A stretch of DNA of 64,000 nt from Azospirillum brasilense. Its GTDB lineage: Bacteria > Pseudomonadota > Alphaproteobacteria > Azospirillales > Azospirillaceae. Below are positions 18,093-41,407 of this stretch, piece after piece. The notes under the pieces were generated by a model. That model saw nothing but the letters and a program-made list of their open reading frames with translations, had not been told where the DNA came from and made no database searches. The first letter of the stretch is position 1; each line of letters begins with the position of its first letter. The translations under genes and the position numbers were made by a program. The stretch spans positions 372,001 to 436,000 of the forward strand of contig NZ_CP032349.1 of NCBI RefSeq assembly GCF_005222205.1. Reading direction: 5' to 3'.

Positions 18093-18122
18093 TCGGTCCT
18101 TAGCGGCAGCGTCCTGAACTTT

Positions 18123-18151
18123 GTCCCGGCGTCCCCTCAGGGCGCCGGGAC
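18123..18151 (+). terminator. Possible terminator between convergent genes
   Basis: Arms GTCCCGGCG (18123-18131) and CGCCGGGAC (18143-18151) are perfectly complementary around an 11-nt loop, 31 bp after the proline-racemase-like stop. Only a weak T-poor tail (CATTGTG) follows, so termination is plausible but not certain. Confidence 0.45.
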
Positions 18152-18204
18152 CATTGTGCTGCGCCGATCAGGGCGATCCACCTGCCCATACCGGCGCGCC
18201 ATCG

Positions 18205-18214
18205 TTGTATACAA
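18205..18214. promoter_or_regulatory. TTGTATACAA palindrome next to the GntR stop codon
   Basis: TTGTATACAA is flanked as CG-palindrome-TGA, the same flanks as the copy at 18971-18980 in the GntR promoter. It lies 6 bp beyond the 3' end of the GntR gene, between two convergent genes, which is an unusual position for an operator. Confidence 0.5.
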
Positions 18215-18220
18215 TGATGC

Positions 18221-18922
18221 TCACTCGGTTTTCGGGACCGTGAAGACGGCCCGCCCGGCGCGCACATGGGCGCGCATCACCGACGACGCCCATTCCCCGT
18301 CGCGGGCGGTCAGGGCTTCGACGATCTCGCGGTGGTGGTTCATGCTGCGGGCGAGGTCGCGCCGGCTGTAGCGGGCGAAGGTCCGCAGAACCAGCGGCAT
18401 CTCCACCACCTGCCGGATCATCTGGCCCAGGCGCCGATCCCCGGCGATGTCGATCAGCAGGCCGTGGAAGCGGTCGTTCAGCGGCGTGATGCGTGAGAAA
18501 TCCACCGCCTCGCCGTCCCCCACCACCGCCTCCATCGCGTCGCACAGCGCCCCCAGCTCGACAAGATGGTGCGGCTCCGCGCGGCTGGCGGCGAGGCCGG
18601 CCACCTGGCTTTCCAGCGTCGCGCGCAGCCCGAAAATCTCGTCGAGGTCCTGAATCGTCCAGGCGTTCACCTTGGCGCCGAGGTTGGGGACGAGCTGCAG
18701 CAGCCCGTCGGCGGACAGGCGGCGCAGGGCCTCCCGCACCGGGGTGCGGCTGACCCCGGTCAGCTCGGCCAGCTCCTGCTCGCGCAGATGGGCGCCCGGC
18801 GGCCAGCGGCTGGCCAGGATGCCTTCCCGAATGAAGCGATAAGCGCGGTCGGCGGCGCGGTTCGAGCCGCCACCAAGGCCGTTGTCCCATTGGGGCGCCA
18901 GAGCCCCGGCGCTCTCCGCCAT
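18221..18922 (-). CDS. GntR family transcriptional regulator (FCD/FadR type)
   Basis: 233 residues. The winged helix-turn-helix (about 20-85) contains 'LREQELAELTGVSRTPVREA', the canonical GntR recognition region. The FCD domain (about 95-225) has 'EIFGLRATLESQVAGLAA', 'NDRFHGLLIDIAG' and 'SMNHHREIVEAL', whose Asp/His residues usually bind a metal and a carboxylate ligand. The ATG near 18922 is preceded by GGGAGG; longer GTG/ATG starts would run through the operator at 18971. It is divergent from the lyase/LeuCD/ABC operon, with an operator in between, and is therefore the likely repressor of that operon, released by an organic acid. Confidence 0.9.
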   Translation of the reverse strand: MAESAGALAPQWDNGLGGGSNRAADRAYRFIREGILASRWPPGAHLREQELAELTGVSRTPVREALRRLSADGLLQLVPNLGAKVNAWTIQDLDEIFGLRATLESQVAGLAASRAEPHHLVELGALCDAMEAVVGDGEAVDFSRITPLNDRFHGLLIDIAGDRRLGQMIRQVVEMPLVLRTFARYSRRDLARSMNHHREIVEALTARDGEWASSVMRAHVRAGRAVFTVPKTE

Positions 18923-26344: not shown

Positions 26345-29300
26345 TCAGGTCTGCGGCGCCTTTCCGGGGGCACGGCAGGGGAACTCGACGGTGAATCGCG
26401 TTCCCTCGCCGGGCTGGCTGTCCAGCTGGATGGTGCCGCCGAGCTGGCCGGTGATCAGGTTGAAGACGATGTGCAGGCCGAGCCCGGTCGAGCCGGTGCC
26501 CCGCCGCGTCGTGAAGAAGGGCTCGAACACCTTGCCGTGGTTTTCCGCTGGGATGCCGCAGCCGTTGTCCCGGTAGACCAGCCGCACCCCATCATTCTCC
26601 AGCGCCTCCGCCGTGATGGCGATCCGGCCCTTCTCGCCCTCCCGGTAGGCGTGGTTGACCGAGTTGGTGATGAGATTCGTCACGATCTGGGCGATCACGC
26701 CGGGGTAGCTGTCCAGCTCGATGCCCTTGGGGCAGTCCAGACTCACCTCGTGGCCCGGGCGGTGCCAGGTCGGGCGCAGGCTGACCAGAACCTCCTCCAG
26801 ATAGCCGCGCAGGTCGAACCGGCGGCGGTCGCTGCGCGTCTGGTCGGAGGCGACCTGCTTGAAGCTCTGCACCAGATCGGCGGCGCGGGTGGCGTTGCTG
26901 ATCATGAGCGTCGCGGCGTCGCGCGCGGCCTGCATGAAGTCCTGGAAGTCGGCCCGGCGCATCTTGCCGGTGTCGGACAGCGTTTCGAGCGCGCTGATCT
27001 TCTCGCCGAGATAGGAGGCGCTGGTCATCACGATGCCGATGGGCGTGTTGATCTCATGCGCCACCCCGGCGACGAGCTGACCCAGCGAGGCCATCTTCTC
27101 CGCCTGGACGAGCTGCTGCTGGGCGGCCTTGAGCTGGGCATGGGCGGCATGGAGCTGCTCGTGGGCGTCGCGCAGCTCGCTTTCGCGGCTGCGGTCCACC
27201 GTCACGTCCACATAGACCTGCACCATGCCGCCGTCCGGCATGGGATTGCTGCGGATCTGGATGACCCGGCCGTCGGCGAACTCGATCTCGCTGGGGCTGC
27301 TGACCAGGGGCGAGGGCACCAGCGCCGTCAGAAGCTGTCCGGACGCGTTCACCGCGGCGCTCAGCTCCCGATAAGGAACGCCGACCCGGCGCAGCGTGTC
27401 CGGCAGGCTGAAAAGCGCCATGGCGCGCTCGTTCCAGACGCGCAGCCGCTCCTCGGCGTCGAAGGCCGCCAAGCCGTCGTACATGCTGGCGAGCGTGGCG
27501 CGCAGCAGCTGCGACTGCTCCGCCACTTCGCGCGTCCGCTCGGCGACCTGGGCTTCCAGCGTGCGGTTCAGCCGCTCCAGCCCGTCGTAGAGGCGGGCAT
27601 TCTCGATGGAGATGGCGATCTGAACGGACAAGAGGTCGAGCAGCTCCAGCCGCTCCGGGCTGAAGATGTCGGCGGCGAGGTTGTTCTCCAGATAGAGGAT
27701 GCCGACCATCTGGTTGCGGTTGCGCAGGGGCAGGCACAGCACGGAGCGCGGCTGCGCCATCCGCGTGTAGGGGTCGTACTGGAAATCGCCGTCGTTCACG
27801 GCGTCGGCCAGGACGACCGGCTCCCCGGTCTGGATGACCGCATCGACGACACCGCGCACCAGGATCGGGGCCGCATCGTCGAGGGGGCGGGATTGCAACA
27901 CCTCCGCGGCATCGCCCTCGCTCGTCGCGTCGGCCTCGATCCGCCACACGCCGTCGGTCGGCAGCAGCAGGCAGCCCCGCGTTGCCCCGGCGTTGGTGAT
28001 GACCAGCTTCATGAGGGTCCACAGCAGGTCGCCGAGCCGGATGTCCTGCGCCAGCGCCCGCGAGGTGCGGATCACCGTCTCCACATCCACCATGTGCGAG
28101 CTGGACCCGGAGGAGGAGCGGCGCCGCGACGTCGCGGTGACCGGGCGTTGCGGCGGGAGGCCGTCGTCGGCGGGACTTTGGTCCGCCGCCGTCTCGCCGA
28201 ACAGTTCCGCCAGCCGGGCGTCCAGCGCCCGGACCTTCGCCAGCGCGTCCCAACGCCGGTAGGCGTGGCGAGCCTGGAACAGCATCGCCTTCGCCGTGAA
28301 GCGGTCGCCGCGCGCCAACGCGGCCTCGCCAGCCCGCTCGCAGGCGAAGGCCTCGTCGTGGGTGAAGCCCTGCTCGCGGGCGCTCTCGGCGGCGGTCTGG
28401 TAATGACGGTGCGCCTTGTCCAGCCGCCCCGTGGCGCGCAGCCGCTCGGCCACCACGAGCGCCAGCAGATGCCGGAAATTGGTCGGCGCGTGGCGGACCG
28501 CGCCGCGGAGCCGGCGCTCCAGACCGAGCGCCGCGGCCCGTGCGCGGAGCCGCTCGGCGGGGCGGAGGCGGTCCCAGGCGGCGAAGTCGATCAGGGCGGC
28601 GACCACCCGCATGCGCAGGTTCATCACCATGCCCATGGAGGCATCGGCGAAGGGGCGGCGCTTCGCCATGCAGCGCCGCGCCTCGTCGATCCGGCCGAAC
28701 AGCAGGTTCAGATAGGCCAGATGGCTGTGCATCGTGTCCAGGGCGAGGCGGTTGCCGCTGGCGGCCAGGGCCGGGACGTCGCTTGCTTCCGTGACGTGGG
28801 GTCCGGCGAAGACGGTGGGGTCCTCGGACTCGCCAAGCAGATTGGCGATGAGCTGCTGGTGGGGCCGCAGCACGCCGGCCGCGGTCTGCTGGTTCAGGCG
28901 CGCGATGGCGGCGGCGTGGCCCGCGGCGGTCTGCTGGAGCTGCCGCAGGGGATGGCCGAGAAACAGCCCTTGCGCGACGGCGTTGTTCAGGCAATAGGCG
29001 GCGTACTCGATGTCGCCGGTTTCCAGGCCGATCCGGTGGGCGTCGAGAAGGCCGGCCAGTGATTTGGCCACCGGCTGGTGCCAGACCTCGATGAACAGAT
29101 GGACGACGAACAGCGTCTGGGCGCGGCCCTGGTTGGCGTTCAGCCGGTCGAGCACGCGCAGCGCCACCCGCCCGTACATGGCGCCCGCCGGAACGTCGCC
29201 GAGCATCGCGCAGTGCAGCAGCCCGTAGGTGGCGTAGGTGATGCCGGAGGCCGGCAGGATTCCCTCGGTCGCCGACAGGCGGACCATGCGCAGCAGCAGC

Positions 29301-32104
29301 ACCGTGTAGAGGTTGGTGTCGTGCAGATAGGCGCTGGCCAGCACGCGCGACACGATGCGCCCGATCGTCAGCAGACGCGGGTCCGTCAGCGGCGGGCGGT
29401 TCACGAGATCCTCCTCGCCCTTGCCGCGCAGCGCCAGCTTGGTCTTGGCGAGTTCCTTGAGCACATGGCGGGTGTCCGCCCGCTCCGGGATCGGGCTGCC
29501 GAGCTGGCCCAGGGCGGTGCGGCAGGCATCGAGCGCCGCGGGCAGGTTCTGCCGCGACACGTGCATCTGGATCTGCGTCTCGTAGGCCAGCGCGCGGTCG
29601 AGGACGGTGCGGGCGTTGGCCTCGATGGCCTCGGCCAGCGGCGTCGCCGCGGCGACGTCGCCGTTCACCGCCGCGATCTCCGCCGCTTCGGCGTGTAGGC
29701 TGAGCGTCAGCTCGTACAGGCGCGACCAGCCGTCCGCGGGGAGCAGCCCGACCCCGGTGATGAGATAGTCGAAGGCCGGCCCCAGCGCCGCCGAGGCGCG
29801 CGCCGCCTGTCCGGCCAGCAGGTTGTAACGGGCCAGCCGCTCCCTCTGCTCCGGCGACAGCAGGGGCAGGGCGCGGTTCAGCTGGTTGGTGATCGCGAAC
29901 AGCCGGTCGGTCGTCCGGTCGCCCGTCAGGCCCTGGCTGCGTTCCAGCACGAGGCCGACGGCGAGATGGCAGGCCAGGGCGTCGGCGTCCGGCAGCATGC
30001 TGTAGGCGGCCTGCTGCACCCGGTCATGGACGAAACGGTAGGTGGCGCGCGGCGACACGCTGTCCATGTCGGCGTAGCGGTAGGCGTCGCCCACCGGGAC
30101 CACCAGCCCGCTGCGCAGGGCCGGCCACAGCGCCGCCGCCGTCGCGGCGGAGGTCCGCCGGCTCGCGTCGGCCAGAGTGGCGAGATCGAAGGCGCTGCCG
30201 ATGCAGGCGGCGGTCTGGATGACGGTCAGCGTCTCGGCGGGCAGCTCGCGGATGCGGCGGACGACGAAGGTGACGACGTCGTCGACCATCCGTTCCATCC
30301 GCTGGGACTCGATGGCCTCCAGGTTCCAGTTCCACACACCGGCGAGGCCGTCATAGGCGATCAGCCCGCTCTGCTCCAGCGACTCCAGGAACTGGCCCAG
30401 GAAGAAGGGGTTGCCCAGCGTGTTGGCGATCAGCCGTTCGGCCAGAGGGCGCACCTCGTCGGGGGCCGCGTGCAGCGTGTCGGACAGCAGGGCGACCACC
30501 GCGTCGGCGTCGAGCCCGCCGAGAGAGACCTCGCGCACCGGCACGCCGCGCTCGCCGAAGGTCTGGATCGTGTGGCGCAGCGGGTGGGCGGCATCGACCT
30601 CGGTGTCGCGGCAGGTGCCGACCAGCAGGAAGTGGCCGAGGTCCGGATCGCCGGCCAGCCCTTCCAGGAGCTTCAGCGTGGCGAGGTCGGCCCATTGCAG
30701 GTCGTCCAGGAACAGCACCAGCGGGTGCCCCGCCCCGGCGAAGGCGCGGACGAAGTTGCGGAAGACGTAGATGAAGCGCTCATGCGCCTCCACCGGACCC
30801 AGTTCCGGGACCGGCGGCTGGGGGCCGATCAGCCGTTCGACGTGCGGAATGACGTCGGTGATGACCCGCCCGTTGGGACCGAGCGCGGCGAGCAGCCGGG
30901 CGCGCCAGCGCGCCAGCGACTCCGGACCGGTGGCGAAGGTCTGCCGCACCAGGGTCTTGAAGGCCTCGATCACCGGGGCGTAGGGGATGTCGCGCTTCAG
31001 CGGCTCGAACTTGCCGGTGATGAAGAAGCCGCGGCGGGCGATCACCGGCTTGTGCAGCTCGCGGACCAGCGCCGACTTGCCGACACCGGAATAGCCGGAG
31101 ATCAGCAGGGTTTCGAACCCGCCCGCGGCGGCCCGCCCGAAAGCGTCGAGAAGGGCGCGGAACTGCGCGGTGCGGCCGTAGAGCTTCTGCGGGATGCGCA
31201 GCACCGGACGGACGTCCCGGCTGGCCAGCGTGAAGGGCTCGACGCGGCCGTGGCCGCGCCATTCGGTCAGGCAGCGTTCAAGATCGGCGCGCAGGCCGAA
31301 GGCGCTCTGGTAGCGCTCCTCCGGGTTCTTCGCCATCAGCCGGGCCACGATGGCGGCCAGCGGCTCGGGCACCAGCGGGTTGAGCTTGTGCACCGGGACG
31401 GGCGTCCGCGCGATGTGGCAATGCACCAGTTCCAGCGGGTCGCCCGATGGGAAGGGGGGCTGCCCGGTCAGGAACTCGTGGAAGGTGGCGCCCAGAGCGT
31501 AGAAGTCGGCGCGGTAATCCACCGACCGGTTCATCCGCCCGGTCTGCTCCGGCGCCATGTAGGCGAGCGTGCCCTCCATGGTGCCGACGTCCGGGTCGCC
31601 CGCCTCTTCCCGCGATAATTCCGACGCGATGCCGAAATCGATCAAGTTGAACTGGCCGGTCGCCGGGTTCCAGATCAGGTTGCCGGGGCTGATGTCCTTG
31701 TGGACGACCCCGGCGTCGTGCACGGCGGCCAGCGCGTCGACGGCCTGGAGCGCCATCCGCAGGAAGACCGCGACGTCCTCCGTCCGCACGTCCGGGAGCC
31801 CGTCCAGGGCGGTGCCACCGATGTCGCGGAACACCATCATCAGCCCGTTGCCGTGGGGGACGCAGTCCAGCGCCTCCACGATCCCGGCGTGGCGCAACCG
31901 GCGGGTGATGGCGAATTCACGCAGGAAGGCCGCCTTGTCCTCGCCGCCGATGTCCGCGCCGGACAGGAATTTGCAGATGACGGGCAGGCCGTCGTCGCGG
32001 CGGATGGCGCGCAGCACGGTGGAGCGCGACCCCACATGCAGCGTCTCGACAACGCGGAAGCCCGGTAACGCCGGCACGGTTGCGGTGGGGATGGCCCCGA
32101 TCAC
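26345..32104 (-). CDS. Giant hybrid: Ser/Thr kinase, AAA ATPase, TPR-like, GAF, PAS and histidine kinase
   Basis: 1,919 residues. Order: Hanks-type kinase (about 15-290; Lys45, catalytic loop 'VVHKDISPGNL' and 'LIDFGIA'); AAA_16 ATPase (about 305-700; Walker A 'SGYSGVGKSALV', Walker B 'LVLFLDDLQWAD'); a long alpha-helical TPR-like region (about 720-1300); GAF (about 1350-1500); PAS (about 1550-1660); histidine kinase with His1683 in 'QLVAGVAHEINTP' and ATPase motifs 'NLITNSVNHA', 'DNGCGIP' and 'GLGLHIV'. The HRD arginine of the Ser/Thr kinase is Lys. The GTG start at 32104 has AAGGA about 10 nt upstream. No response regulator is adjacent. It resembles the trifunctional kinases found in cyanobacteria and Azospirillum-like bacteria; the signal is unknown. 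It is divergent from the flavoprotein gene at 32370. Confidence 0.9.
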   Translation of the reverse strand: MIGAIPTATVPALPGFRVVETLHVGSRSTVLRAIRRDDGLPVICKFLSGADIGGEDKAAFLREFAITRRLRHAGIVEALDCVPHGNGLMMVFRDIGGTALDGLPDVRTEDVAVFLRMALQAVDALAAVHDAGVVHKDISPGNLIWNPATGQFNLIDFGIASELSREEAGDPDVGTMEGTLAYMAPEQTGRMNRSVDYRADFYALGATFHEFLTGQPPFPSGDPLELVHCHIARTPVPVHKLNPLVPEPLAAIVARLMAKNPEERYQSAFGLRADLERCLTEWRGHGRVEPFTLASRDVRPVLRIPQKLYGRTAQFRALLDAFGRAAAGGFETLLISGYSGVGKSALVRELHKPVIARRGFFITGKFEPLKRDIPYAPVIEAFKTLVRQTFATGPESLARWRARLLAALGPNGRVITDVIPHVERLIGPQPPVPELGPVEAHERFIYVFRNFVRAFAGAGHPLVLFLDDLQWADLATLKLLEGLAGDPDLGHFLLVGTCRDTEVDAAHPLRHTIQTFGERGVPVREVSLGGLDADAVVALLSDTLHAAPDEVRPLAERLIANTLGNPFFLGQFLESLEQSGLIAYDGLAGVWNWNLEAIESQRMERMVDDVVTFVVRRIRELPAETLTVIQTAACIGSAFDLATLADASRRTSAATAAALWPALRSGLVVPVGDAYRYADMDSVSPRATYRFVHDRVQQAAYSMLPDADALACHLAVGLVLERSQGLTGDRTTDRLFAITNQLNRALPLLSPEQRERLARYNLLAGQAARASAALGPAFDYLITGVGLLPADGWSRLYELTLSLHAEAAEIAAVNGDVAAATPLAEAIEANARTVLDRALAYETQIQMHVSRQNLPAALDACRTALGQLGSPIPERADTRHVLKELAKTKLALRGKGEEDLVNRPPLTDPRLLTIGRIVSRVLASAYLHDTNLYTVLLLRMVRLSATEGILPASGITYATYGLLHCAMLGDVPAGAMYGRVALRVLDRLNANQGRAQTLFVVHLFIEVWHQPVAKSLAGLLDAHRIGLETGDIEYAAYCLNNAVAQGLFLGHPLRQLQQTAAGHAAAIARLNQQTAAGVLRPHQQLIANLLGESEDPTVFAGPHVTEASDVPALAASGNRLALDTMHSHLAYLNLLFGRIDEARRCMAKRRPFADASMGMVMNLRMRVVAALIDFAAWDRLRPAERLRARAAALGLERRLRGAVRHAPTNFRHLLALVVAERLRATGRLDKAHRHYQTAAESAREQGFTHDEAFACERAGEAALARGDRFTAKAMLFQARHAYRRWDALAKVRALDARLAELFGETAADQSPADDGLPPQRPVTATSRRRSSSGSSSHMVDVETVIRTSRALAQDIRLGDLLWTLMKLVITNAGATRGCLLLPTDGVWRIEADATSEGDAAEVLQSRPLDDAAPILVRGVVDAVIQTGEPVVLADAVNDGDFQYDPYTRMAQPRSVLCLPLRNRNQMVGILYLENNLAADIFSPERLELLDLLSVQIAISIENARLYDGLERLNRTLEAQVAERTREVAEQSQLLRATLASMYDGLAAFDAEERLRVWNERAMALFSLPDTLRRVGVPYRELSAAVNASGQLLTALVPSPLVSSPSEIEFADGRVIQIRSNPMPDGGMVQVYVDVTVDRSRESELRDAHEQLHAAHAQLKAAQQQLVQAEKMASLGQLVAGVAHEINTPIGIVMTSASYLGEKISALETLSDTGKMRRADFQDFMQAARDAATLMISNATRAADLVQSFKQVASDQTRSDRRRFDLRGYLEEVLVSLRPTWHRPGHEVSLDCPKGIELDSYPGVIAQIVTNLITNSVNHAYREGEKGRIAITAEALENDGVRLVYRDNGCGIPAENHGKVFEPFFTTRRGTGSTGLGLHIVFNLITGQLGGTIQLDSQPGEGTRFTVEFPCRAPGKAPQT

Positions 32105-32369: not shown

Positions 32370-34664
32370 ATGGCGAAGATGAGGGTTGCAATTCTAGGTG
32401 GTGGCGTCGGCGCCCTCACCACGGCGCATTTCCTGTCCGACACGGATGAGAAGCGGGCGCGCTACGACGTCACCATCTATCAGATGGGCTGGCGGCTGGG
32501 CGGCAAGGGCGCCACCGGGCGCGACCAGTGGAACCGCATCCAGGAACACGGCCTGCACGTCTGGTTCGGCTTCTACAACAACGCCTTCAAGATGCTCCAG
32601 GACGTCTTCGACGTCTGGAAGCGCTCGCCGGACAACACCTTCCAGTCCTGGCGGGACGTGCTGAAGCCGCAGCGCTTCACCCCCATCGGCATGGTGCTGG
32701 ACGGCGGAAAGCCGGCCTACTGGCCGCTGACCTGGCCAGTGCTGGGCGGCGAGCCAGGCTCGGCCAACGTCATGCCGACCCTGCCGCAGGCCATCGCGTC
32801 GCTGGTCGGCGTGGTGCGCGATGTCTTCGAGAACTGGGACGAGCTGAGCGGCCTGATCGTCGACGGCAAGCTGGTCCACATCGACGGCCGCACCGTCGCG
32901 CCGATGCCGGTCCTGCCGCCCGACCAGCAGGTCCTTCCGGCGCCGCTGGCCACCCGCTTCGCCGACGCGATCCGCGGCTGGAAGGACCGGGAGGTCCGCC
33001 ATCTGGCGCAGGCCGAGGCGCTGGTGAAGGGCGCCGCCGTGACCACTGCGAAGGACGCCGCCATCGCCGCCCACCGGCTGATCCGGGCGCTGGCGGACGG
33101 GCCGCAGAATGGGCCTGGGTCCAACCCGTCGGCGGCCCCGCCGGTCGAGCATTTCCACGACCTGATGAAACTGTTGCGGCTGATCGAAGCCGCGGCGGCC
33201 ACCCTGCCCAGCAACCATGTGGCCCGCGACCTGCTGGCCTTCGTGCTTCCCTTCACCATCGGCGTCATCGCCGATTTCGGGATCGAGAAGCGCACCGCCG
33301 ACTCGCTGGACGAGCTGGAATTCACCGACTGGCTGATCCGCCACGGCGGCGACGCCGAAGCGCTGAAGCAGAGCTGTTCGCTGCGCACCTGCTACGACAC
33401 CTTCATGCAGTACAAGGACGGCGACTACCGGCAGCCCAACTGGGGCGCCGGCGTCGCGGCGCAGTCCTGCGTGCGCATGTTCGCCACCTGCCGCGAGTCG
33501 GTGATGTGGAACATGGAAGCGGGCATGGGCGAGGTCATCATCGCGCCCATCTACCAGACCCTGCTGCAGAACGGCGTGAAGGTGAAGTTCTTCCGCCGCG
33601 TCGAGGACATCGGCCTGTCCGACGACCGCGCGCTGGTCGAGACCGTGCGTCTCGCCCGGCAGGTCGATCTGGCCGACGGCGGGGACGACTACCAGCCGCT
33701 GATCACCGTGCCGCTGGAGGACAAGAAGTTCCTGCTGGCCTGGCCGCTGGAGCCGCTGTGGGACCAGGTCAAGGACGCCGACAAGGTCCAGGCGGCTCTC
33801 GCCACCAACAACTCCTCGCTGGAATCGCACTGGTGCGCGTGGGAGCCGGTCGGGACCGAGACGCTGCAGCGCGGCCGCGACTTCGACGTCGCCGTCCTCG
33901 GCATCTCCATGGGCGGCTTCAAGGCGATGAACGACCAGCCGACCCTGGCGGCGGAGCTGCAGGCGGCCTCGCCGGCCTTCAACGCGATGACCAGCAACAT
34001 CGGCATCATCCCGACGCTGTCCATGCAGCTGTGGTGCGGTCCCGACCTCCAGGGGCTGGGCTGGGAGCCGGGGCAGCCGGCCGCCGTCGCCGGGCCGGAG
34101 CCCTGGTCGATCTGGGCGGAGATGGGGCAGACGCTGCCCTACGAGTTCCGCCCCGACGAGACCGGCGCGCCGAAGTCGGTGCATTACATCTGCGGCGTTT
34201 GGCAGACCGGTCTGGTCGCCCGTCCGACCACCGACCTCGCGGTGCCGAAGGAGGCGCTGGACAACGTCACGAACAGCGCGGCGGAGTGGCTGGACGCCTA
34301 TATGGGCAATTTCTGGCCCAAGGCGACGGTCTCCGGCCAGGGCGGCGTCGGCTTCAACTGGAACGTCCTCTACGATCCGTGGAACGGCACCGGGCGGGAG
34401 CGGCTGTCGCACCAGATCATCCGCGCCAACGTCGATCCGACCGAAACGCTGCCGGGCAGCGCCGCCGGCTCCACCAAGTTCCGGCTGCGCACCGACGCGA
34501 GCGGGTTCTACAACCTGTTCCTGGCCGGCTGCTGGGTTCGCACCGGCTTCAACACCTCCTGCATCGAGGCGACGGTGATGTCCGGCATGCAGGCGGCGCG
34601 GGCCATCTCCGGAACGCCATTGTTCATCTCCGGCGAGAACTTCCTGAACGGGGCGCCGTCGTGA
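32370..34664 (+). CDS. Large FAD-dependent oxidoreductase, phytoene-desaturase-like, paralogue 1
   Basis: 764 residues. The N-terminal Rossmann motif is 'VAILGGGVGALTTAHFLS', followed by the second FAD motif 'MGWRLGGKGATGR' and then 'RIQEHGLHVWFGFYNNAF'. The latter recurs in the divergent paralogue at 37078-39087. The C-terminal flavin motif, usually LAGDW, is 'FLAGCWVRTGFNTS', with Cys721 in place of Asp. Large insertions (about 170-290 and 430-500) separate these motifs, making it much longer than carotenoid desaturases (about 500). It overlaps the acetoacetate-decarboxylase-like gene by GTGA. The substrate is unknown, probably hydrophobic given the FadL-type porin nearby. Upstream, 32105-32369 is AT-richer and probably holds the divergent promoters. 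Confidence 0.72.
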   Translation: MAKMRVAILGGGVGALTTAHFLSDTDEKRARYDVTIYQMGWRLGGKGATGRDQWNRIQEHGLHVWFGFYNNAFKMLQDVFDVWKRSPDNTFQSWRDVLKPQRFTPIGMVLDGGKPAYWPLTWPVLGGEPGSANVMPTLPQAIASLVGVVRDVFENWDELSGLIVDGKLVHIDGRTVAPMPVLPPDQQVLPAPLATRFADAIRGWKDREVRHLAQAEALVKGAAVTTAKDAAIAAHRLIRALADGPQNGPGSNPSAAPPVEHFHDLMKLLRLIEAAAATLPSNHVARDLLAFVLPFTIGVIADFGIEKRTADSLDELEFTDWLIRHGGDAEALKQSCSLRTCYDTFMQYKDGDYRQPNWGAGVAAQSCVRMFATCRESVMWNMEAGMGEVIIAPIYQTLLQNGVKVKFFRRVEDIGLSDDRALVETVRLARQVDLADGGDDYQPLITVPLEDKKFLLAWPLEPLWDQVKDADKVQAALATNNSSLESHWCAWEPVGTETLQRGRDFDVAVLGISMGGFKAMNDQPTLAAELQAASPAFNAMTSNIGIIPTLSMQLWCGPDLQGLGWEPGQPAAVAGPEPWSIWAEMGQTLPYEFRPDETGAPKSVHYICGVWQTGLVARPTTDLAVPKEALDNVTNSAAEWLDAYMGNFWPKATVSGQGGVGFNWNVLYDPWNGTGRERLSHQIIRANVDPTETLPGSAAGSTKFRLRTDASGFYNLFLAGCWVRTGFNTSCIEATVMSGMQAARAISGTPLFISGENFLNGAPS

Positions 34665-35626
34665 CCGCCCCCCGCTACGTCTCCTTCGCCGGGCACGGCG
34701 AGGTGTCGATCGCCGCACCCGGCGTCTTCACCGACAGCCTCGCCACCGCCTTCATCGTGCGCAGCAACCCGGTGAACACCCAGGCGCTGGTGGATAAGCT
34801 GCTCAACGCGGCGCCTGCCGGGGCGGTGCGCTACGAGGTGGCCGGTCCGGTGGCTCTGTGCACCTTCCTGTCGGTGGGGCGCTGCACCAGCCCGACCGAG
34901 CCGTTCGGCTGGATTCCCTACCGGGAGGCCTCGCTGTGGCTGCCGCTGATCGAGCATCGGCCCGGCCACTGGCCGCGGCTGGTGCTGTGGATGCCGTACG
35001 TCTTCCCGGACGCGACCATTCCGCTGGTCTGCGGGCGCGAGGGCTGGGGCTTCGCCAAGTCGCTCGGCCGCATCACGCTGCCGGAGGAGGGCGCCGAGGC
35101 GCCGCGCTTCGTCTGCGAGACGACGCTGTTCCGCACCATGTCCTCCGACTGCGAGGGGGTGTTCGCCCCGCTGCTGACGGTGGAAGGCGGGCCGTGGACC
35201 CCCGGCTCGGCGTGGCAGAGCCTCGAGGATCTCGCCGCCGACCTCGGCGACGCGCTGAAGGCCCTGCTACGCCCCGGCGGTCTGGTCGAAGGGGTGGAAG
35301 TCGCTGTCAAGGCGGTGGAATCGCTGCTGGCCGGCACGGTGCCGGTCATCAACCTGAAGCAGTTCCGCGACGCCCCGGACAGCGAACGGGCCTGTTACCA
35401 AGCGCTGATCGACTGCCCGATGCACGTCGACCGCTTCCGCGGGGCGTGGCCGATGCGGGGCGACTGGACGCTGCGGGTGGCCGACTACGCCAGCCATCAG
35501 GTCATCTCGGACTTCGGCTTCGCGGCCGGGCCGGATGGCAGCGCCACCGTCCATGTGGATTTCGCCATGCAGATCCACATGGACTTCCGCGCCAACCCCG
35601 GCCGGGTGGTCTGGCAGGCGGAGTGA
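34661..35626 (+). CDS. Acetoacetate decarboxylase family protein
   Basis: 321 residues. The ADC-like barrel motif 'PLVCGREGWGFAKSLGRI' holds the likely Schiff-base Lys133. In true acetoacetate decarboxylase the catalytic Lys is followed by a second Lys that lowers its pKa; here the next residue is Ser, so the chemistry may be aldolase/dehydratase-like or different. The GTG start at 34661 overlaps the stop of the flavoprotein gene, so the two are translationally coupled and likely act in sequence on one substrate. The C-terminal half (about 190-320) departs from short ADC sequences. It ends 6 bp before a strong terminator. Confidence 0.7.
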   Translation: MTAPRYVSFAGHGEVSIAAPGVFTDSLATAFIVRSNPVNTQALVDKLLNAAPAGAVRYEVAGPVALCTFLSVGRCTSPTEPFGWIPYREASLWLPLIEHRPGHWPRLVLWMPYVFPDATIPLVCGREGWGFAKSLGRITLPEEGAEAPRFVCETTLFRTMSSDCEGVFAPLLTVEGGPWTPGSAWQSLEDLAADLGDALKALLRPGGLVEGVEVAVKAVESLLAGTVPVINLKQFRDAPDSERACYQALIDCPMHVDRFRGAWPMRGDWTLRVADYASHQVISDFGFAAGPDGSATVHVDFAMQIHMDFRANPGRVVWQAE

Positions 35627-35632
35627 GGAAAG

Positions 35633-35668
35633 GGGCGCCGGCCCGACGGAAGGCCGGCGCCCGTTTTT
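35633..35668 (+). terminator. Rho-independent terminator, strong, between convergent units
   Basis: A perfect 11-bp stem GGGCGCCGGCC / GGCCGGCGCCC with an 8-nt loop is followed by TTTTT at 35664-35668. It ends the flavoprotein/ADC transcript. Read on the other strand, the same stem lies just beyond the porin stop and is followed by CTTTCC, so it may work both ways. Confidence 0.85.
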
Positions 35669-35684
35669 CAGATATGGGAGACCG

Positions 35685-37064
35685 TCAGAACGAGGCGCTG
35701 AGGCTCAGCGCCACGATGTCGGTGCCGTTGCAGAACTTCCCCGGGTTGACGGCGGAGCCGTTGGGCGGCGTGCCGTTGCTCACGCATTCCTGGAAGCCGT
35801 GGGAAAAGGCGCCGTCCAGCCGCAGCGTCTCGGAGAAGGCGTAGCCGACGCCGACGCTGGCGTGCTTGGTGATGACCACCGGGATGACCGAGACGATGTC
35901 CTCCGCCGGAGAGGTCTTGTCGGCCCAGCGGAAGCCGGCGCGCAGGGTCAGCGCGTCGGTCACTTGGTAGGCACCGCCGACGGCGAAGATGTTGATGTCG
36001 CGGTAGCGCTGCGGCAGCGTCTCCCACACCGTGCCGAGGCCTGGCACGTCGACGCGGATGTTGTACTGGCGCAGCGCCTGCGCCCAGAAGGCCCGCCGGT
36101 AGTCGAAGGCGACGGTCAGGTCGGGCCGCAGCCGGTGGCTGACGCCGATGCCGAACTCGGCGGGGAGCTGGAAATTGCCCAGCGTGTACTTCGCGGGCTG
36201 GGTCAGCCGCGAGCCGTCCGGCGCCAGCACGATCACCGAACCGTCGCCGGTCAGGTTGTTGAGCGCCGTGCGGAACTGGTAGAAGGCGCCGACGGTGGTC
36301 TCGGCCTGCGGCTTCCAGGTCAGGCCGAGCCGGCCGCTGACCCCGTCGCCCTCCACGCCGGCGCGGGCGATCGACGGGTCGAAGATGTCGAAATAGACGC
36401 CGCCGCCCATCCCGACCATGGCGCTGGCCGCGCCCAGCATCGGCCCCTGTCCGGTCAGCCGCCCGGTGGCGGCCAGCGCGCCGAGCTGGTCGGCCCCCTG
36501 AAGGACGCGGAAGCCGAGCCCCGCCCGCACATAGTCGATGGCGCCCGCCACCGTGACCTTCGGCGTCACGTCCCAGGCGGCGGCCAGCGGGACGCGCATG
36601 AACATCGCCTCGCTGCTGGTGCGCAGTCCGCTGTCGACGCCGGACGGCAGGCGGGCCATGAAGCTGCCCTCGCCGTAATCGGTGCCGAAGCCGCCCTGGG
36701 CGTAGGCGCCCAGCCCCAGCGCCAGGGTCTCATGCCGCCAGACGAAGCCGCCCTGGGGGATGTAGTAGCCCTGGAAGGGGAAGGTGTCCTTGCCGTGCGC
36801 CACCTCGCCGGTCCGCGTCTGCGTGGCGCGCAGCCCGGTCGGGGCGGCGACGACCAGTCCGCCTTCCAGATAGGAGGAGGAGCGCTGGGTCAGGGTCGCC
36901 GGGTTGAAGATCATGGCGGCGCCGCCGATGTCGGACGCCGCGCCGGTGCCGCCCATGCCCATGGACACGGCCCCGAATCCTTCGAAGGTGTAGACGTCGG
37001 TGGCATGGGACGGAAACGCGGCGGCCAGGGTGGCCGCCGCGGCAAACGCTGCGATTACGCGCAT
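35685..37064 (-). CDS. FadL/OmpP1/TodX-family outer membrane protein
   Basis: 459 residues. A signal peptide (about 1-21, 'AAFPSHA-TDVY') is followed by the FadL-type hatch start 'GFGAVSMGMGGTGAA' and 'AAMIFNPATL', matching the family's NPA motif. A beta-barrel with alternating hydrophobic strands follows and ends in a terminal Phe (LSLSASF), as expected for Bam-assembled porins. Such proteins pass hydrophobic compounds, fatty acids or aromatics through the outer membrane. It begins 13 bp after flavoprotein paralogue 2 on the same strand, indicating that the enzyme and porin share a hydrophobic substrate. Confidence 0.88.
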   Translation of the reverse strand: MRVIAAFAAAATLAAAFPSHATDVYTFEGFGAVSMGMGGTGAASDIGGAAMIFNPATLTQRSSSYLEGGLVVAAPTGLRATQTRTGEVAHGKDTFPFQGYYIPQGGFVWRHETLALGLGAYAQGGFGTDYGEGSFMARLPSGVDSGLRTSSEAMFMRVPLAAAWDVTPKVTVAGAIDYVRAGLGFRVLQGADQLGALAATGRLTGQGPMLGAASAMVGMGGGVYFDIFDPSIARAGVEGDGVSGRLGLTWKPQAETTVGAFYQFRTALNNLTGDGSVIVLAPDGSRLTQPAKYTLGNFQLPAEFGIGVSHRLRPDLTVAFDYRRAFWAQALRQYNIRVDVPGLGTVWETLPQRYRDINIFAVGGAYQVTDALTLRAGFRWADKTSPAEDIVSVIPVVITKHASVGVGYAFSETLRLDGAFSHGFQECVSNGTPPNGSAVNPGKFCNGTDIVALSLSASF

Positions 37065-37077
37065 TGAATCAGGATTC

Positions 37078-39087
37078 TCAATCGGACGGGGTGAGGTCGA
37101 TGGTCTGGCGGGCGATGGCCTCGGCGGCCTGCTTTCCGGAGAGGACGGCGATCTCGGCGCTGCCCGCGCTGAACCAGGTCCGCGTCCAGTCCCCCGCCAG
37201 GAAGGCGTTGACGAAGCCGCTGTCGCCCGGCGTCAGCCGGGTCTCCACCGTCGCCGGGAAGCACTGCACGTAAAGCTCCGACGGGTCGAGGTTGTAGCGG
37301 TAGTAGGAGGAATGGACCTGGCTCTGGTCGAACACGCCGTCCTTGACCGTGTTGGGCCACAGAACCCCGATGTTGGCGTTCAGCCACTCCGTGGCATCCC
37401 GGCGGACGTCCGCGGCCATCCGCTGCGGCAGGCCGCAGGCGTAGGGCGGGGCGCCGGCCGGCCAGCGGGCGGTGCCGCAGAAATACTCCACGGCCTTGAC
37501 GGTGCCGGGCGGCCAGGATTCGGCGGGGATGAGGTGGCTCATCTCGCCCCAGCTGTCCAGTTCCTCGACATAGCTGGTCATGGCGGTCGGGCCGGCCTTC
37601 CAGCCCATCTCCTCGATGCTCGGCGTCATCCAGAGCTGGACCGCCTGGGTCGGCACCGCCGGGGTGACCTCGACCATCTGCTTGAAGCGCAAGTCGGCCT
37701 GCATCAGTTCCGCCGCCGGCTCGGCCAGCGCGGCGGGCGGCATCGCCAGGACGACGAGGTCGAAATCCTTGCCGACCTCCAGCACCGATTCCCCGGCGGT
37801 GCAGTGGCAGAACACGGATTCCAGATTGATGCCGGCGTCGCGGATCTTGTCGCCGTCGACGATCTGGCTCCAGTCCGGCTCGGACGGCCAGCAGTAGAGC
37901 CACTTCCCATCGTCGCCGTAGCCGACCTTGACGAACGGGTCATAGGCGCCGTTGACGAGATCGACCTGCCGGTTCAGGCGCACCCGCTCCACCCAGGCGC
38001 CGTTCTCCGAGGTTTCCAGCTTGGTCAGGCGGTGGAACAGCTTGATGTCCACCCCGCGCTGCTTCAGCACGAACCAGGCGGGCGTGAAGACGGTGTCGCC
38101 CATGCCGGCGTTCATCTTCCACAGCGGCGCGCCCTTGTAGGCGAAGCCCATCAGCAGAAGGATCTCCGCCGCCGCACCGGCGGCGAAGCGCGCGTTCTCC
38201 GGCCCGTCGGTCGCTTCGCCGTTCTTGTAGGAGAAGCACATGTCGTAGAGCAGGCGCACCGGGGCCGACCACGCGAAGGTGTCGGAGATGCCGTTCTTCT
38301 GCAGCCACTCGCGGAAGTCCTCGCCGTTGATGCGGTCGAAGCCGTCCTTGCCGTAGGGCAGCACGTCGGCGAAGCAGCCGATGGCGAAGGCGAGGCCGAA
38401 ATCGGCGAAGCAGGCGAACTCCCAGCCCTCGTCCGACAGCTTCAGCAGCGGCTCCAGGACCGCCTGGAAGCCCTTCTGGACGAGCTTGAGCAGATCGACG
38501 ATCAGCCCGTGGTCCAGGGCGCCGTCGCCGGCCTCCTCGATGTGGGCCCGCGCCTTGTCGAGGGCGTCCAGGCCGAGCTTGGCGGTGAGGTGGCCGGGCA
38601 GATGGTCGTGCTTGGCGACCAGATTCTGCAGCGCGCCGATCAGGAAGGCGGCGAAGCCGTTCGGGCCGAGCGACCGCGGGTCGCCGGGCGTGCCGGGGCG
38701 CTCGGGGAAGTCGAGGTTCCAGGAGTGCCAGCGGGTCTTGCCGAAGCGCGGGATGTCCTGCATCAGCGTCACCTGATACAGCGGGCGGAAGGCGTCGGTC
38801 CAGGTCTGGAAGGCGTAGTCGGCGGGCTTGTCCCACTCCGCGTAGGCGCCGCGCACCATCCGGAAGGCGTTGTCGTAGAAGCCCAGGAAGATGTGCAGCC
38901 CGTGCTCCTCGATGCGCTGGCCCTGCTTGGCGTTGCGGCCGCTGGCCCCCTTGCCGCCCAGCCGCCAGCCGTGGCTGACCAGAGTCACGTCGAACGTCTC
39001 GCGCAACGCCTCGGTCGCCGTGAGAGTCAGCGCGGCGGACACGCCCCCAAGCCCGCCGCCCAGCACCAGCACACGCGTCTTTCCCAT
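37078..39087 (-). CDS. Large FAD-dependent oxidoreductase, phytoene-desaturase-like, paralogue 2
   Basis: 669 residues. It has Rossmann motif 'VLVLGGGLGGVSAALTLT', then 'HGWRLGGKGASGR' and 'RIEEHGLHIFLGFYDNAF', closely matching paralogue 1 at 32370. The C-terminal motif here is the intact 'FLAGDWTRTWFSAG', with Asp633. The ATG at 39087 is used; an in-frame GTG 3 codons upstream is possible. It is preceded by eutC (116-bp gap) and followed 13 bp later by the FadL-type porin. Known relatives desaturate or isomerise long isoprenoids, or are amine-oxidase-like; I cannot name the substrate. Pairing of two such enzymes, one with and one without the FAD-binding Asp, suggests a heteromeric or two-step system. 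Confidence 0.72.
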   Translation of the reverse strand: MGKTRVLVLGGGLGGVSAALTLTATEALRETFDVTLVSHGWRLGGKGASGRNAKQGQRIEEHGLHIFLGFYDNAFRMVRGAYAEWDKPADYAFQTWTDAFRPLYQVTLMQDIPRFGKTRWHSWNLDFPERPGTPGDPRSLGPNGFAAFLIGALQNLVAKHDHLPGHLTAKLGLDALDKARAHIEEAGDGALDHGLIVDLLKLVQKGFQAVLEPLLKLSDEGWEFACFADFGLAFAIGCFADVLPYGKDGFDRINGEDFREWLQKNGISDTFAWSAPVRLLYDMCFSYKNGEATDGPENARFAAGAAAEILLLMGFAYKGAPLWKMNAGMGDTVFTPAWFVLKQRGVDIKLFHRLTKLETSENGAWVERVRLNRQVDLVNGAYDPFVKVGYGDDGKWLYCWPSEPDWSQIVDGDKIRDAGINLESVFCHCTAGESVLEVGKDFDLVVLAMPPAALAEPAAELMQADLRFKQMVEVTPAVPTQAVQLWMTPSIEEMGWKAGPTAMTSYVEELDSWGEMSHLIPAESWPPGTVKAVEYFCGTARWPAGAPPYACGLPQRMAADVRRDATEWLNANIGVLWPNTVKDGVFDQSQVHSSYYRYNLDPSELYVQCFPATVETRLTPGDSGFVNAFLAGDWTRTWFSAGSAEIAVLSGKQAAEAIARQTIDLTPSD

Positions 39088-39203: not shown

Positions 39204-40016
39204 TTACGGGGCGTTGGCGTCCGGCAGTTCCGGCGGGGTGGCGGGAGCTGCGGCGTCGAGCATGATTCCCGACCGGCGCTGGGCGAACATTGCGATGAGC
39301 AGGGCCGCTGCCTGGGCGGCGGCGGCGGTGGGGGCGAGGCCGCCGACTCGGACGTTGGAGATGCAGTTGCGCTCGCTGTCCACCCGGCCGGGTCGCGGTT
39401 CCCAGGTCAGATAGAGGCCCAATGAATCGGCGGCGCTCAGCCCCGGCCGCTCGCCGATCAGGACGACGCTCGCCCGCGCCTGGAGCAGCGCGCCGACCGG
39501 GTCGCCCAGCGCCACCCGCGCCTGCTCCGCCACCACCACCGGCCCGACCCGCAGCCCGGCCGCCTGGAGCTTCGGGATCAGGGCCTCCAGCACCGCGACG
39601 GCGTTGGCCTGCACGGCGGTGCCGCTCAGCCCGTCGCCGACCACCAGAACCACGTCGGGGGCGCGGACCGGCTCCGACAGGCGGCGCTGCGACTCCTCCG
39701 ACAATTGCCGGCCGAGGTCCGGGCGCTTCAGGTAGGCGGCGCGGTCGGGCGCCGCGCTGGTCACCGCGACCGCCGGCCAGCCGCGCTCCGCCAGGGCCGC
39801 CAGAAGCGCCGCGGCGTCGAGCGGCGTGTGCACGGCGTCGCGCGCCCGGGCGTGGGCGGCCTGGAAGGCGAGGTGGGCGGCGGTGGGCAGGCCGCTCCCG
39901 GCGTGGCCCAGCGCGATCCGCGCGTCGGTGTGGCGGCGCAGATGCGCCCAGCGATCGGGCTGGACCGGGTCGGGTTGGGCCTGGGAGGGAAGGGGCACCG
40001 GTTCGGACTCCGTCAT
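39204..40016 (-). CDS. eutC: Ethanolamine ammonia-lyase small subunit
   Basis: 270 residues with the EutC core 'HTDARIALGHAGSGLPTAAH' (B12-contacting loop), 'DVVLVVGDGLSGTAVQANAV' and 'ADSLGLYLTWEPRPGR', then 'ERNCISNVR'. With EutB it forms the cobalamin-dependent enzyme that splits ethanolamine to acetaldehyde and ammonia. ATG overlaps the eutB stop by 4 bp. No microcompartment shell, eutA reactivase or eutH permease genes are near, as is usual for the stand-alone eutBC of alphaproteobacteria. Confidence 0.96.
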   Translation of the reverse strand: MTESEPVPLPSQAQPDPVQPDRWAHLRRHTDARIALGHAGSGLPTAAHLAFQAAHARARDAVHTPLDAAALLAALAERGWPAVAVTSAAPDRAAYLKRPDLGRQLSEESQRRLSEPVRAPDVVLVVGDGLSGTAVQANAVAVLEALIPKLQAAGLRVGPVVVAEQARVALGDPVGALLQARASVVLIGERPGLSAADSLGLYLTWEPRPGRVDSERNCISNVRVGGLAPTAAAAQAAALLIAMFAQRRSGIMLDAAAPATPPELPDANAP

Positions 40017-41407
40017 GGCTGTTCCTCCGGCAGGGGCAGGGCGGGCAGAAGGCAGGACGCGGCGGGGTCGAAGCGCAGGCGCCCGGTGGAATCGGCGATG
40101 CCGGCGGCCTGCTGCCACGCCTCGAACTCCGGCGCGGGGCGGCGGCCGAGCACCTGACGCACATAGAGCGCGTCGTGGAAGGAGGTGCTCTGGTAGTTCA
40201 GCATGATGTCGTCGGCCCCCGGCACCCCCATGATGAAGGTGCAGCCGGCCACGCCGAGCAGGGTGAGCAGGGCGTCCATGTCGTCCTGGTCGGCCTCCGC
40301 GTGGTTGGTGTAGCAGACGTCGCAGCCCATCGGCAGGCCGAGCAGCTTGGCGCAGAAATGATCCTCCAGCCCGGCCCGCGTGATCTGCTTGCCGTCGTAG
40401 AGGTATTCCGGCCCGATGAAGCCGACCACCGTGTTGACCAGAAGCGGCCGGTAGCGGCGGGCGACGGCGTAGCAGCGCGCCTCCACCGTCTGCTGGTCCA
40501 CCCCCTCATGCGCGCCGGACGACAGCTCGCTGCCCTGGCCGGTCTCGAAATACATCAGGTTGTCGCCGACGGTGCCGCGGTTCAGCGCCCGTCCGGCCTC
40601 CCACGCCTCGTCCAGCAGGGCCAACGAGACGCCGAAGGCGCGGTTGGCGGCCTCCGTCCCGGCGATGGACTGGAAGACCAGATCGACCGGCGCCCCGCGC
40701 TCCATGGCCTTCAACGCCGTGGTCACATGGGCCAGCACGCAGGACTGGATCGGCGCGCCGGTGCGCAGGCGAAGCTCCTCCAGCATCTCCAGGAGGGTCG
40801 TCATCGCCTCCACGCTGTCGGTGGCCGGGTTGATGCCGATCACCGCGTCGCCGCTGCCGTACATCAGCCCGTCGAGGACACTGGCCGCGATGCCGCGCGG
40901 GTCGTCCACCGGGTGGTTGGGCTGCAGGCGCGTCGATAGGCGTCCCGGCAGACCGATGGTGTTGCGGAAGCGCGTGACGACGCGGGTCTTGGCGGCGACG
41001 GCGATCAGGTCCTGCAGCCGCATGATCTTTGACACCGCCGCGACCATCTCCGGCGTCAGGCCCGGGGCGAGCGCCGTCAGGGCCGCCGCGTCCGCCGCCT
41101 CCGACAGCAGCCAGTCACGGAAGCCGCCGACGGTCAGGTGGGCGACCGGGGCGAAGGCGGCGCCGTCGTGGCCGTCGACGATCAGCCGGGTCACCTCGTC
41201 CGTCTCGTAGGGGACGACCGCCTCGCTCAGGAAATGGCGCAGCGGCAGGTCGGCCAGGGCCATCTGCGCGGCCACCCGCTCCGCCGCGCTGGCGGCGATC
41301 AGCCCGGCCAGCGCGTCGCCCGAGCGTGGCGGCGAGGCGCGGGCGAGCAGAGTCTTCAGATCGGGAAACTGGTGCCGCGTCCCGGCCAGAGTGTGGGCGA
41401 ATGCCAT
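40013..41407 (-). CDS. eutB: Ethanolamine ammonia-lyase large subunit
   Basis: 464 residues, full length. The TIM-barrel substrate site 'TRLQPNHPVDDPRG' carries the Arg and Gln that bind ethanolamine, and 'FQSIAGTEAANRAFG' and 'NLMYFETGQGSELSSGAHEG' are hallmark EutB segments. GAGGGGAGAGGGG precedes the ATG. The gene is 33 bp downstream of the inositol-phosphatase-family gene on the same strand and is coupled to eutC. This order suggests that ethanolamine is released from a phosphate ester before cleavage. Confidence 0.97.
   Translation of the reverse strand: MAFAHTLAGTRHQFPDLKTLLARASPPRSGDALAGLIAASAAERVAAQMALADLPLRHFLSEAVVPYETDEVTRLIVDGHDGAAFAPVAHLTVGGFRDWLLSEAADAAALTALAPGLTPEMVAAVSKIMRLQDLIAVAAKTRVVTRFRNTIGLPGRLSTRLQPNHPVDDPRGIAASVLDGLMYGSGDAVIGINPATDSVEAMTTLLEMLEELRLRTGAPIQSCVLAHVTTALKAMERGAPVDLVFQSIAGTEAANRAFGVSLALLDEAWEAGRALNRGTVGDNLMYFETGQGSELSSGAHEGVDQQTVEARCYAVARRYRPLLVNTVVGFIGPEYLYDGKQITRAGLEDHFCAKLLGLPMGCDVCYTNHAEADQDDMDALLTLLGVAGCTFIMGVPGADDIMLNYQSTSFHDALYVRQVLGRRPAPEFEAWQQAAGIADSTGRLRFDPAASCLLPALPLPEEQP

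Follow-up and report, generated by a model that had tools for sequence, protein, structure and literature searches.

A stretch of 64,000 nucleotides from Azospirillum brasilense (NCBI RefSeq assembly GCF_005222205.1, contig NZ_CP032349.1, positions 372,001 to 436,000 of the forward strand; hereafter the window) carries two genes for long flavoproteins resembling carotenoid desaturases, here named desA and desB, together with a gene for a protein resembling acetoacetate decarboxylase (ADC) and a gene for a giant sensor kinase. The trio and the kinase stand side by side both here and in numerous relatives, suggesting an as yet uncharacterised unit of enzymes and signalling. Judging from gene fusions and gene order, desA, the ADC-like gene and desB belong together, and they are tentatively read as one enzyme system that would serve as the chemical input of the signalling unit, a reading whose chances are put a little below even. 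The A-type gene desA (32370..34664, plus strand, 764 amino acids; assigned by Pfam, NCBIfam and trees) is followed on the same strand by the ADC-like gene (34661..35626, plus strand, 321 amino acids, with a candidate lysine at position 133), whose GTG start overlaps the desA stop codon by four bases (GTGA). The B-type gene desB (37078..39087, minus strand, 669 amino acids; assigned by Pfam, paralogy and trees) converges on this pair. Divergent from desA, across a gap of 265 bases, lies the gene for a STAND-like signalling protein of 1919 amino acids (26345..32104, minus strand) with Ser/Thr kinase, AAA_16 ATPase, GAF, PAS and histidine-kinase domains (Pfam). An earlier note on this DNA had described the trio and a gene for a FadL-type porin; all four genes (764, 321, 459 and 669 amino acids) lie where it placed them. 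The giant kinase lies outside the coordinates of that note and was missed by it.

Both flavoproteins match the Pfam families NAD_binding_8 (PF13450) and Amino_oxidase (PF01593) above the cut-off. They are paralogues, as claimed earlier, with 38% identity over 170 N-terminal and 32% over 465 C-terminal alignment columns, and the motifs GWRLGGKGA and EHGLH...GFY are common to both, and most of their positions show no variation in two selected sets of family members (26 and 53). The family (hereafter D) is presumably COG3349; the commonest naming source in the homologue lists, JGI, calls its members 'uncharacterized protein with NAD-binding domain and iron-sulfur cluster'. Likeness to the phytoene and zeta-carotene desaturases (PDS/ZDS) and to HpnE lies in the FAD-binding N-terminus and in the motifs GLHxxFGxY and C-terminal LAG...SG...A, both of which are in common with the phytoene desaturase of PDB entry 5mog found by a profile of 26 chosen relatives. 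The differences are considerable. With 669-764 amino acids against profiles of 430 (HpnE), 453 and 474 positions, the two proteins are longer than carotenoid desaturases, as also claimed, D proteins exceeding the profiles by about 200-300 amino acids. They fall below every equivalog cut-off, their best NCBIfam matches being ZDS for desA (51.1 bits, cut-off 622) and HpnE for desB (66.2 bits, cut-off 283). Moreover, the D family has two subtypes that pair and fuse, fusions to ADC-like domains and signalling neighbours.

A search for desA homologues among 5.8 billion proteins gave 1181, the best 120 of which were listed. All 24 of those best 120 that exceed 850 amino acids carry an ADC-like domain, at the C-terminus in 21 and at the N-terminus in three. 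A second search with one such fusion as query led to a set of 208 proteins, two of them the window's own, which represents the closest relatives of the two queries and is not a random sample. By architecture it consists of 130 proteins with D alone, one with ADC alone, 54 D-ADC, five ADC-D and 16 D-D chains, one D-D-ADC and one D-ADC-D, the first D of the latter being incompletely matched. Unfused neighbours occur as well: in Corallococcus, the ADC-like COCOR_06776 and the D protein COCOR_06777 have consecutive tags. The surroundings of D genes were surveyed at 37 distinct loci (numbered L), with the window standing for the other Azospirillum loci, L048 and L059 as well as L056 and L057 each counted as one locus, and L049 (same contig as L010), L051 and L052 excluded. 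An ADC-like gene or domain is present at 29 of the 37, and in L056 separate genes for D, ADC and D follow one another. The two flavoproteins and the ADC-like protein were earlier proposed to belong together, which fusions in several orders and this succession of separate genes uphold.

The D domains fall into two subtypes that recur as a pair. A FastTree phylogeny of 129 D domains separates the two, desA lying on a side of 63 rows and desB opposite. Among 17 proteins with two full D domains, 13 pair a half from the side of desA with a half in the 15-row clade of desB, in the order B-A in five and A-B in eight, one A-B chain continuing into an ADC-like domain; both halves of the remaining four (P0154, P0158, P0161, P0168) lie outside the side of desA and outside the desB clade. 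In an IQ-TREE analysis of 50 chosen rows, from which P0087 is absent, nine B-type rows form one clade (SH-aLRT 99) and the A-type halves stay with desA. Since the A/B pairing recurs in fused chains, the convergent desA and desB of the window can be regarded as a heterologous pair that recurs elsewhere and is here unfused. Among trios outside the Azospirillum group, the nearest is that of L010, a desA-ADC fusion and desB, with a kinase as well.

The ADC-like protein matches PF06314 with 41.3 bits (cut-off 29.8) over positions 26-121 of the 238-position profile. Residues E89, R126, E127, G130 and K133 are invariant in all 29 unfused ADC-like rows, and position 134 is S, V, G, T, A, E, D or C and lysine in none of them, so that the adjacent second lysine of true acetoacetate decarboxylase is absent. 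A profile of 29 relatives aligns K133, weakly (E 0.007-0.012), with the first lysine of the PKK motif in 3c8w, 3bgt and 6eej, the lysine that forms the Schiff base in ADCs; phmmer with the single ADC-like sequence gave no match to solved structures at E 0.1. Compared with the solved members of the superfamily (PF06314; PDB 3c8w, 3bgt, 4zbo, 6eej), the protein is alike in the GRExWGxxK motif and the aligned lysine and differs in its length (about 320 against 246-265 amino acids), in the missing second lysine, in weak similarity outside the motif and in its link to a flavoprotein. The Schiff-base step suggested earlier for this enzyme is upheld as to the candidate lysine. For the window's protein, a lysine-based reaction is considered probable, with appreciable room for doubt.

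Signalling genes recur beside D genes in several forms. Giant proteins joining AAA_16 to Ser/Thr kinase, cyclase and/or histidine-kinase domains lie near the D gene at 20 of the 37 loci, namely the window, L010, L040 (a Qingshengfaniella plasmid), L041 (a Rufibacter plasmid, Bacteroidota), L045, L047, L050, L056, L092-L096 and L098-L104. The giant is mostly the next gene, with two genes intervening in L096 and one in L056; relative to the D gene, it is on the same strand at 14 loci, divergent at five and convergent at one, and many same-strand giants lie 0-50 bases from the enzyme gene or overlap it. The window's kinase is STAND-like in that its AAA_16 ATPase is joined to Pkinase, GAF, PAS and HATPase domains, and a domain order like its own (Pkinase-AAA_16-GAF-PAS-HATPase) is found near the D gene in L010, L041, L045, L050 and L094. 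Weak TPR-type matches, each below the curated cut-off, occur in the giants of L040, L047 and L092, and none is reported in the window protein. This domain order and the cyclase-AAA_16 combination resemble giant Ser/Thr-plus-histidine kinases with AAA and GAF domains, presumably to be labelled HstK-like, and cyclase-AAA-TPR proteins; the difference is that the giants described here are tied to one enzyme family, in seven families of Pseudomonadota and on a Bacteroidota plasmid. Crp-like genes follow the cyclases in L040 and L098-L102. Seven loci, all of family f13, have a TIR-TPR protein instead, next to the D gene in L085-L088 and at the cluster end, some 5 kb away, in L046, L083 and L084. A DNA-binding Trans_reg_C-TPR protein adjoins the D gene in L048 and L105, and a histidine kinase alone is adjacent at four loci (L044, L089-L091), which is weak evidence because such kinases are common. 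The open reading frames at the loci were called mechanically and the small home-made profiles under-detect; at L039, for example, they failed to flag a diguanylate cyclase and, some 5 kb away, an annotated histidine kinase with a response regulator.

To gauge chance proximity, 31 of the 41 genomes with a D gene (omitting G099, G777 and eight other Azospirillum genomes) were searched for PF13191. STAND giants were defined by AAA_16 at E <= 1e-11 in a frame of at least 900 amino acids, a rule set after seeing the table, and were counted by eye. There are 41 such giants in the 31 genomes, and 18 of them are no more than 10 kb from a D gene, where random placing would give 0.225; the corresponding Poisson figure of 3e-28 ignores kinship and is indicative only. 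A giant 12.5 kb from the D gene in G1443 was not counted as a neighbour. In nine genomes the STAND neighbour is the sole such giant, 11 of the 31 genomes are without any, and G1461 and G1495 have giants, none near the D gene.

Some signalling neighbourhoods hold further genes. In L050 (2128-7961), two more large histidine kinases directly precede the ADC-D fusion, which the giant kinase follows, giving three signalling proteins for one enzyme gene. An ABC transporter with a cyclic-nucleotide-binding domain stands behind the cyclase that follows the D gene of L095 (15132-18287). A family of 600-residue proteins, F5, occurs near the enzyme and TIR-TPR genes in L087 (14003-15805) as well as in L046, L083, L085, L086 and L088; it is without a Pfam match and shows a weak SLATT_1 match (26.2 bits, cut-off 41).

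Genes of isoprenoid type stand beside the D gene at nine of the 37 loci, which fall in three families. A prenyl diphosphate synthase gene (PF00348) is the second gene downstream of D in L046, L083, L084, L096 and L097, a CruF-like gene (PF04240) overlaps or adjoins the D-ADC gene in L085-L087, and an RPE65-family oxygenase gene (17363-18820) lies 23 bases after the second D of L056; a weak RPE65-type match lies about 7.6 kb off in L088. An isoprenoid substrate is given about an even chance. A possible parallel exists in Anabaena, where the ADC-family protein all0736 and the FAD-dependent oxidoreductase alr1788, neither necessarily of the present family, are more abundant in the lipid-droplet proteome under nitrogen starvation (PMC12923008). 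Besides these, a gene for an MTTB-type methyltransferase precedes the D, ADC and D genes of L056 (8988-10544). Between D and the prenyl synthase gene, a protein of 256-309 amino acids is encoded in L084 (11201-12130), L083 (10840-11730), L046 (11131-11901) and L096 (11071-11883), with no Pfam family over the cut-off; by eye its helical part is phasin-like, which may suggest a lipid granule.

The sequences themselves show that the parts are joined, that D has two subtypes, that the lysine is conserved and that signalling genes are neighbours, and a mechanism may be proposed on this basis. The desA, ADC-like and desB proteins would be three parts of one enzyme system that elsewhere often forms a single polypeptide. 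The A/B pair would carry out two flavin-dependent oxidations on a hydrophobic substrate, most likely an isoprenoid or polyene, and the resulting carbonyl compound would undergo one lysine (Schiff-base) step at the ADC-like part. The product, or the presence of the substrate, would then be read by the co-encoded STAND-like protein, whose output would vary by lineage: Ser/Thr and histidine kinase here, adenylate/guanylate cyclase with Crp, TIR or a DNA-binding TPR protein elsewhere. Since the enzyme part is constant and the outputs are variable, the enzymes are suggested to lie on the input side of the signalling protein and not on its output side, an assignment held tentatively and at somewhat less than even probability. 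A more specific form would be a widespread and undescribed class of bacterial signalling: the flavoprotein pair and the ADC-like part would produce or use up a messenger derived from isoprenoids, and a genetically coupled STAND-like receptor with interchangeable outputs would read it. Such a bacterial terpenoid-hormone system is considered rather unlikely.

A number of observations weigh against the enzymes forming one system that feeds the signalling protein. Adjacency cannot tell input from output, and at four of the 37 loci (L039, L043, L058 on a short contig, and L097) the profiles found no signalling neighbour. The 18 close STAND cases span seven families, ten of them in f23 alone, and thus represent fewer independent events than 18. 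Those D genes of the surveyed loci that are included in the tree, except desA and that of L010, all lie on the opposite side from desA; hence, the signalling link spans the D family at large, and its A-type shows the link solely within the window's own family. The window, L010 and L056 are the sole loci with two D genes, and an A/B pair is confined to the window's group and L010; the pair in L056 belongs to neither type. By profiles, the D gene is without an ADC-like gene at eight loci (L041, L043, L044 on a short contig, L045, L048, L088, L094 and L105), three of which have a STAND neighbour. Family f23 and its relative L040 have a weak ADC part: among eight such parts, those of L040, L047 and L104 exceed the Pfam cut-off and those of L095, L098, L101, L102 and L103 reach 25-28 of the 29.8 bits required. 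Neither the ADC part of L047 and L104 nor the second ADC-like copy in L046, L083 and L084 shows the lysine motif, so that the lysine reaction is likely for the window protein and not for all relatives. With regard to the substrate, the isoprenoid-type neighbours scanned are all below the NCBIfam equivalog cut-offs, the RPE65-family protein of L056 matches models of both carotenoid and lignostilbene cleavage and could cleave stilbenes, and single-sequence searches for these gene types, other isoprenoid genes not being sought, found no direct neighbour at the other 28 loci, including the window.

The main rival to the input assignment turns the relation round: the enzymes would make up a biosynthetic or catabolic route for some hydrophobic compound and would be controlled, in expression or activity, by the neighbouring kinase or cyclase, which would sense something else. 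The divergent layout of kinase and enzyme genes in the window, L010, L041, L045 and L094 is typical of a regulator beside its target, and the clusters of L046, L083 and L084, with prenyl synthase, an unassigned protein, a saccharopine-dehydrogenase-like protein and two ADC-like genes, look biosynthetic. However, the operon-like placement of the giant on the strand of the enzyme, at times overlapping it, in 14 of 20 loci does not fit, and, against a constant enzyme part, the outputs are diverse and for the most part do not bind DNA; this explanation is doubtful but to be taken seriously. Another rival is a role of the flavoproteins as common carotenoid or squalene/hopanoid desaturases within the usual synthesis of pigments or membrane lipids. 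The FAD motifs and the sequence family are indeed common to D proteins, phytoene/zeta-carotene desaturase and HpnE, CruF-like, prenyl synthase and RPE65-family genes stand beside some relatives, and cyanobacterial COG3349 proteins, not necessarily of the long D family, are called phytoene desaturases beside phytoene/squalene synthase in one publication (PMC4558948). The scores, at 51 of 622 bits for ZDS and 66 of 283 for HpnE, nevertheless fall far short of all equivalog cut-offs. The genome also encodes an HpnE above the cut-off (C2:592402-593628) which, together with three neighbouring squalene/phytoene-synthase (SQS_PSY) genes, occupies C2:589616-593628 on another contig than desA, with no such gene near desA. 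As D genes are also rare and patchy (5 of 398 genomes from the phylum), such an ordinary role is very improbable, in line with the earlier note, which had set it against its own proposal.

Other readings start from the neighbours rather than from the flavoproteins. STAND, cyclase and TIR proteins and the weakly SLATT-like F5 are parts known from anti-phage systems, and the TIR-TPR proteins at seven loci together with the 26.2-bit match of F5 would suit an immunity or conflict system. PADLOC models match only the kinase, cyclase, TIR and TPR parts, though, desA, the ADC-like gene and desB matching none of its families at E 0.001, and carotenoid-type enzymes do not fit as neighbours; anti-phage defence was dropped as leading explanation after this test of the enzyme genes and retains little probability. 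An import route via the porin is improbable as well. The FadL/TodX-type outer-membrane protein (35685..37064, minus strand, 459 amino acids) shows a near full-length Toluene_X match (PF03349, 110.9 bits, cut-off 29.7), with nothing unusual compared with other FadL/TodX transporters, and could bring in a hydrophobic compound that would be degraded or converted in the cytoplasm by the two flavoproteins and the ADC-like enzyme. Its gene follows desB on the same strand at a distance of 13 bases and is conserved at five of five loci of close relatives (four Azospirillum, one named Roseomonas genomospecies 6) and in seven of seven Azospirillum plasmid records. In contrast, no homologue was found at the other 36 of 37 loci (phmmer, E 1e-4, which very distant FadL proteins could escape), and in L010 there is none between the ADC part and desB, the contig ending about 250 bases past desB. 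A recognisable homologue thus accompanies a D gene at the Azospirillum locus only, and FadL looks like a local addition that may import a hydrophobic compound in Azospirillum alone. Of the couplings claimed earlier, that of FadL to desB accordingly holds for the window and its close relatives only, and the expected co-occurrence in other genomes holds for D with ADC-like genes (29 of 37 loci, and fusions) and fails for FadL; the outer-membrane-to-cytoplasm route is not supported because FadL is not upheld as a fixed part.

The proposed enzyme system feeding a sensor would be a known kind of arrangement as such. Signal synthase and receptor pairs such as LuxI/LuxR likewise have enzyme and sensor encoded side by side, although the proteins are unrelated and the signal is hypothetical in the case of the window. 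No paper joining these parts was found in the open-licence literature of PubMed Central, subscription papers being mostly outside the search, which agrees within that scope with the earlier statement that no pathway with this gene set is described. Three lines of evidence (fusion in multiple orders, recurrent subtype pairing and a recurrent signalling neighbour) hereby link a protein family of no assigned function to partners, turning an annotation dead end into testable pairs: desA with the ADC-like protein, desA with desB, and enzyme with kinase or cyclase. If the enzymes do feed the sensor, bacteria would possess a chemical signal of hydrophobic and probably terpenoid nature, and its receptors would be similar in build to the immune receptors of plants and animals; this would be categorically new and is unproven. 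Azospirillum brasilense and its relatives live in association with plants and are readily manipulated.

Between the convergent stop codons of the ADC-like and FadL genes lies a terminator-like hairpin (35633..35662, plus strand) of 11 G-C pairs with a loop of eight, followed by GTTTTT. The scan reported a T-run beside this stem on the plus strand only; the terminator, formerly taken to be shared by both units, is therefore supported for desA and the ADC-like gene and not for the FadL/desB side. In total, four terminator-like sites were counted against a shuffle mean of 3.1, i.e., they are not commoner than in shuffled sequence. Directly upstream of desB, on the same strand, are genes for EutC and EutB (ethanolamine ammonia-lyase; 39204-41407, minus strand). 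They were rejected as members of the unit and are probably unrelated because they were not found at L009, where trio, FadL and kinase are present; L010, whose contig ends just past desB, is uninformative in this respect.

D genes are rare and patchy. At a threshold of E 1e-40, with the own genome included where drawn and with only the best few candidates scored per genome, so that the counts are lower bounds, D genes were found in at least 3 of the 289 genomes sampled from the class, in 5 of 398 sampled from the phylum and in 3 of 321 from another class. For three orders, the counts are 7 of 196, 6 of 194 and 12 of 195. In the family, 11 of 82 genomes are positive, nine of these being among the 45 genomes of the window's genus. 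Ten plasmid records carry a D gene, seven of them from Azospirillum, and tblastn with two more distant queries returned the same ten. Such a patchy, plasmid-borne spread suits an accessory, transferable trait. One D gene, that of L045 (G693:C2:84115-86205), has a single TGA inside the surrounding frame of 1173 codons.

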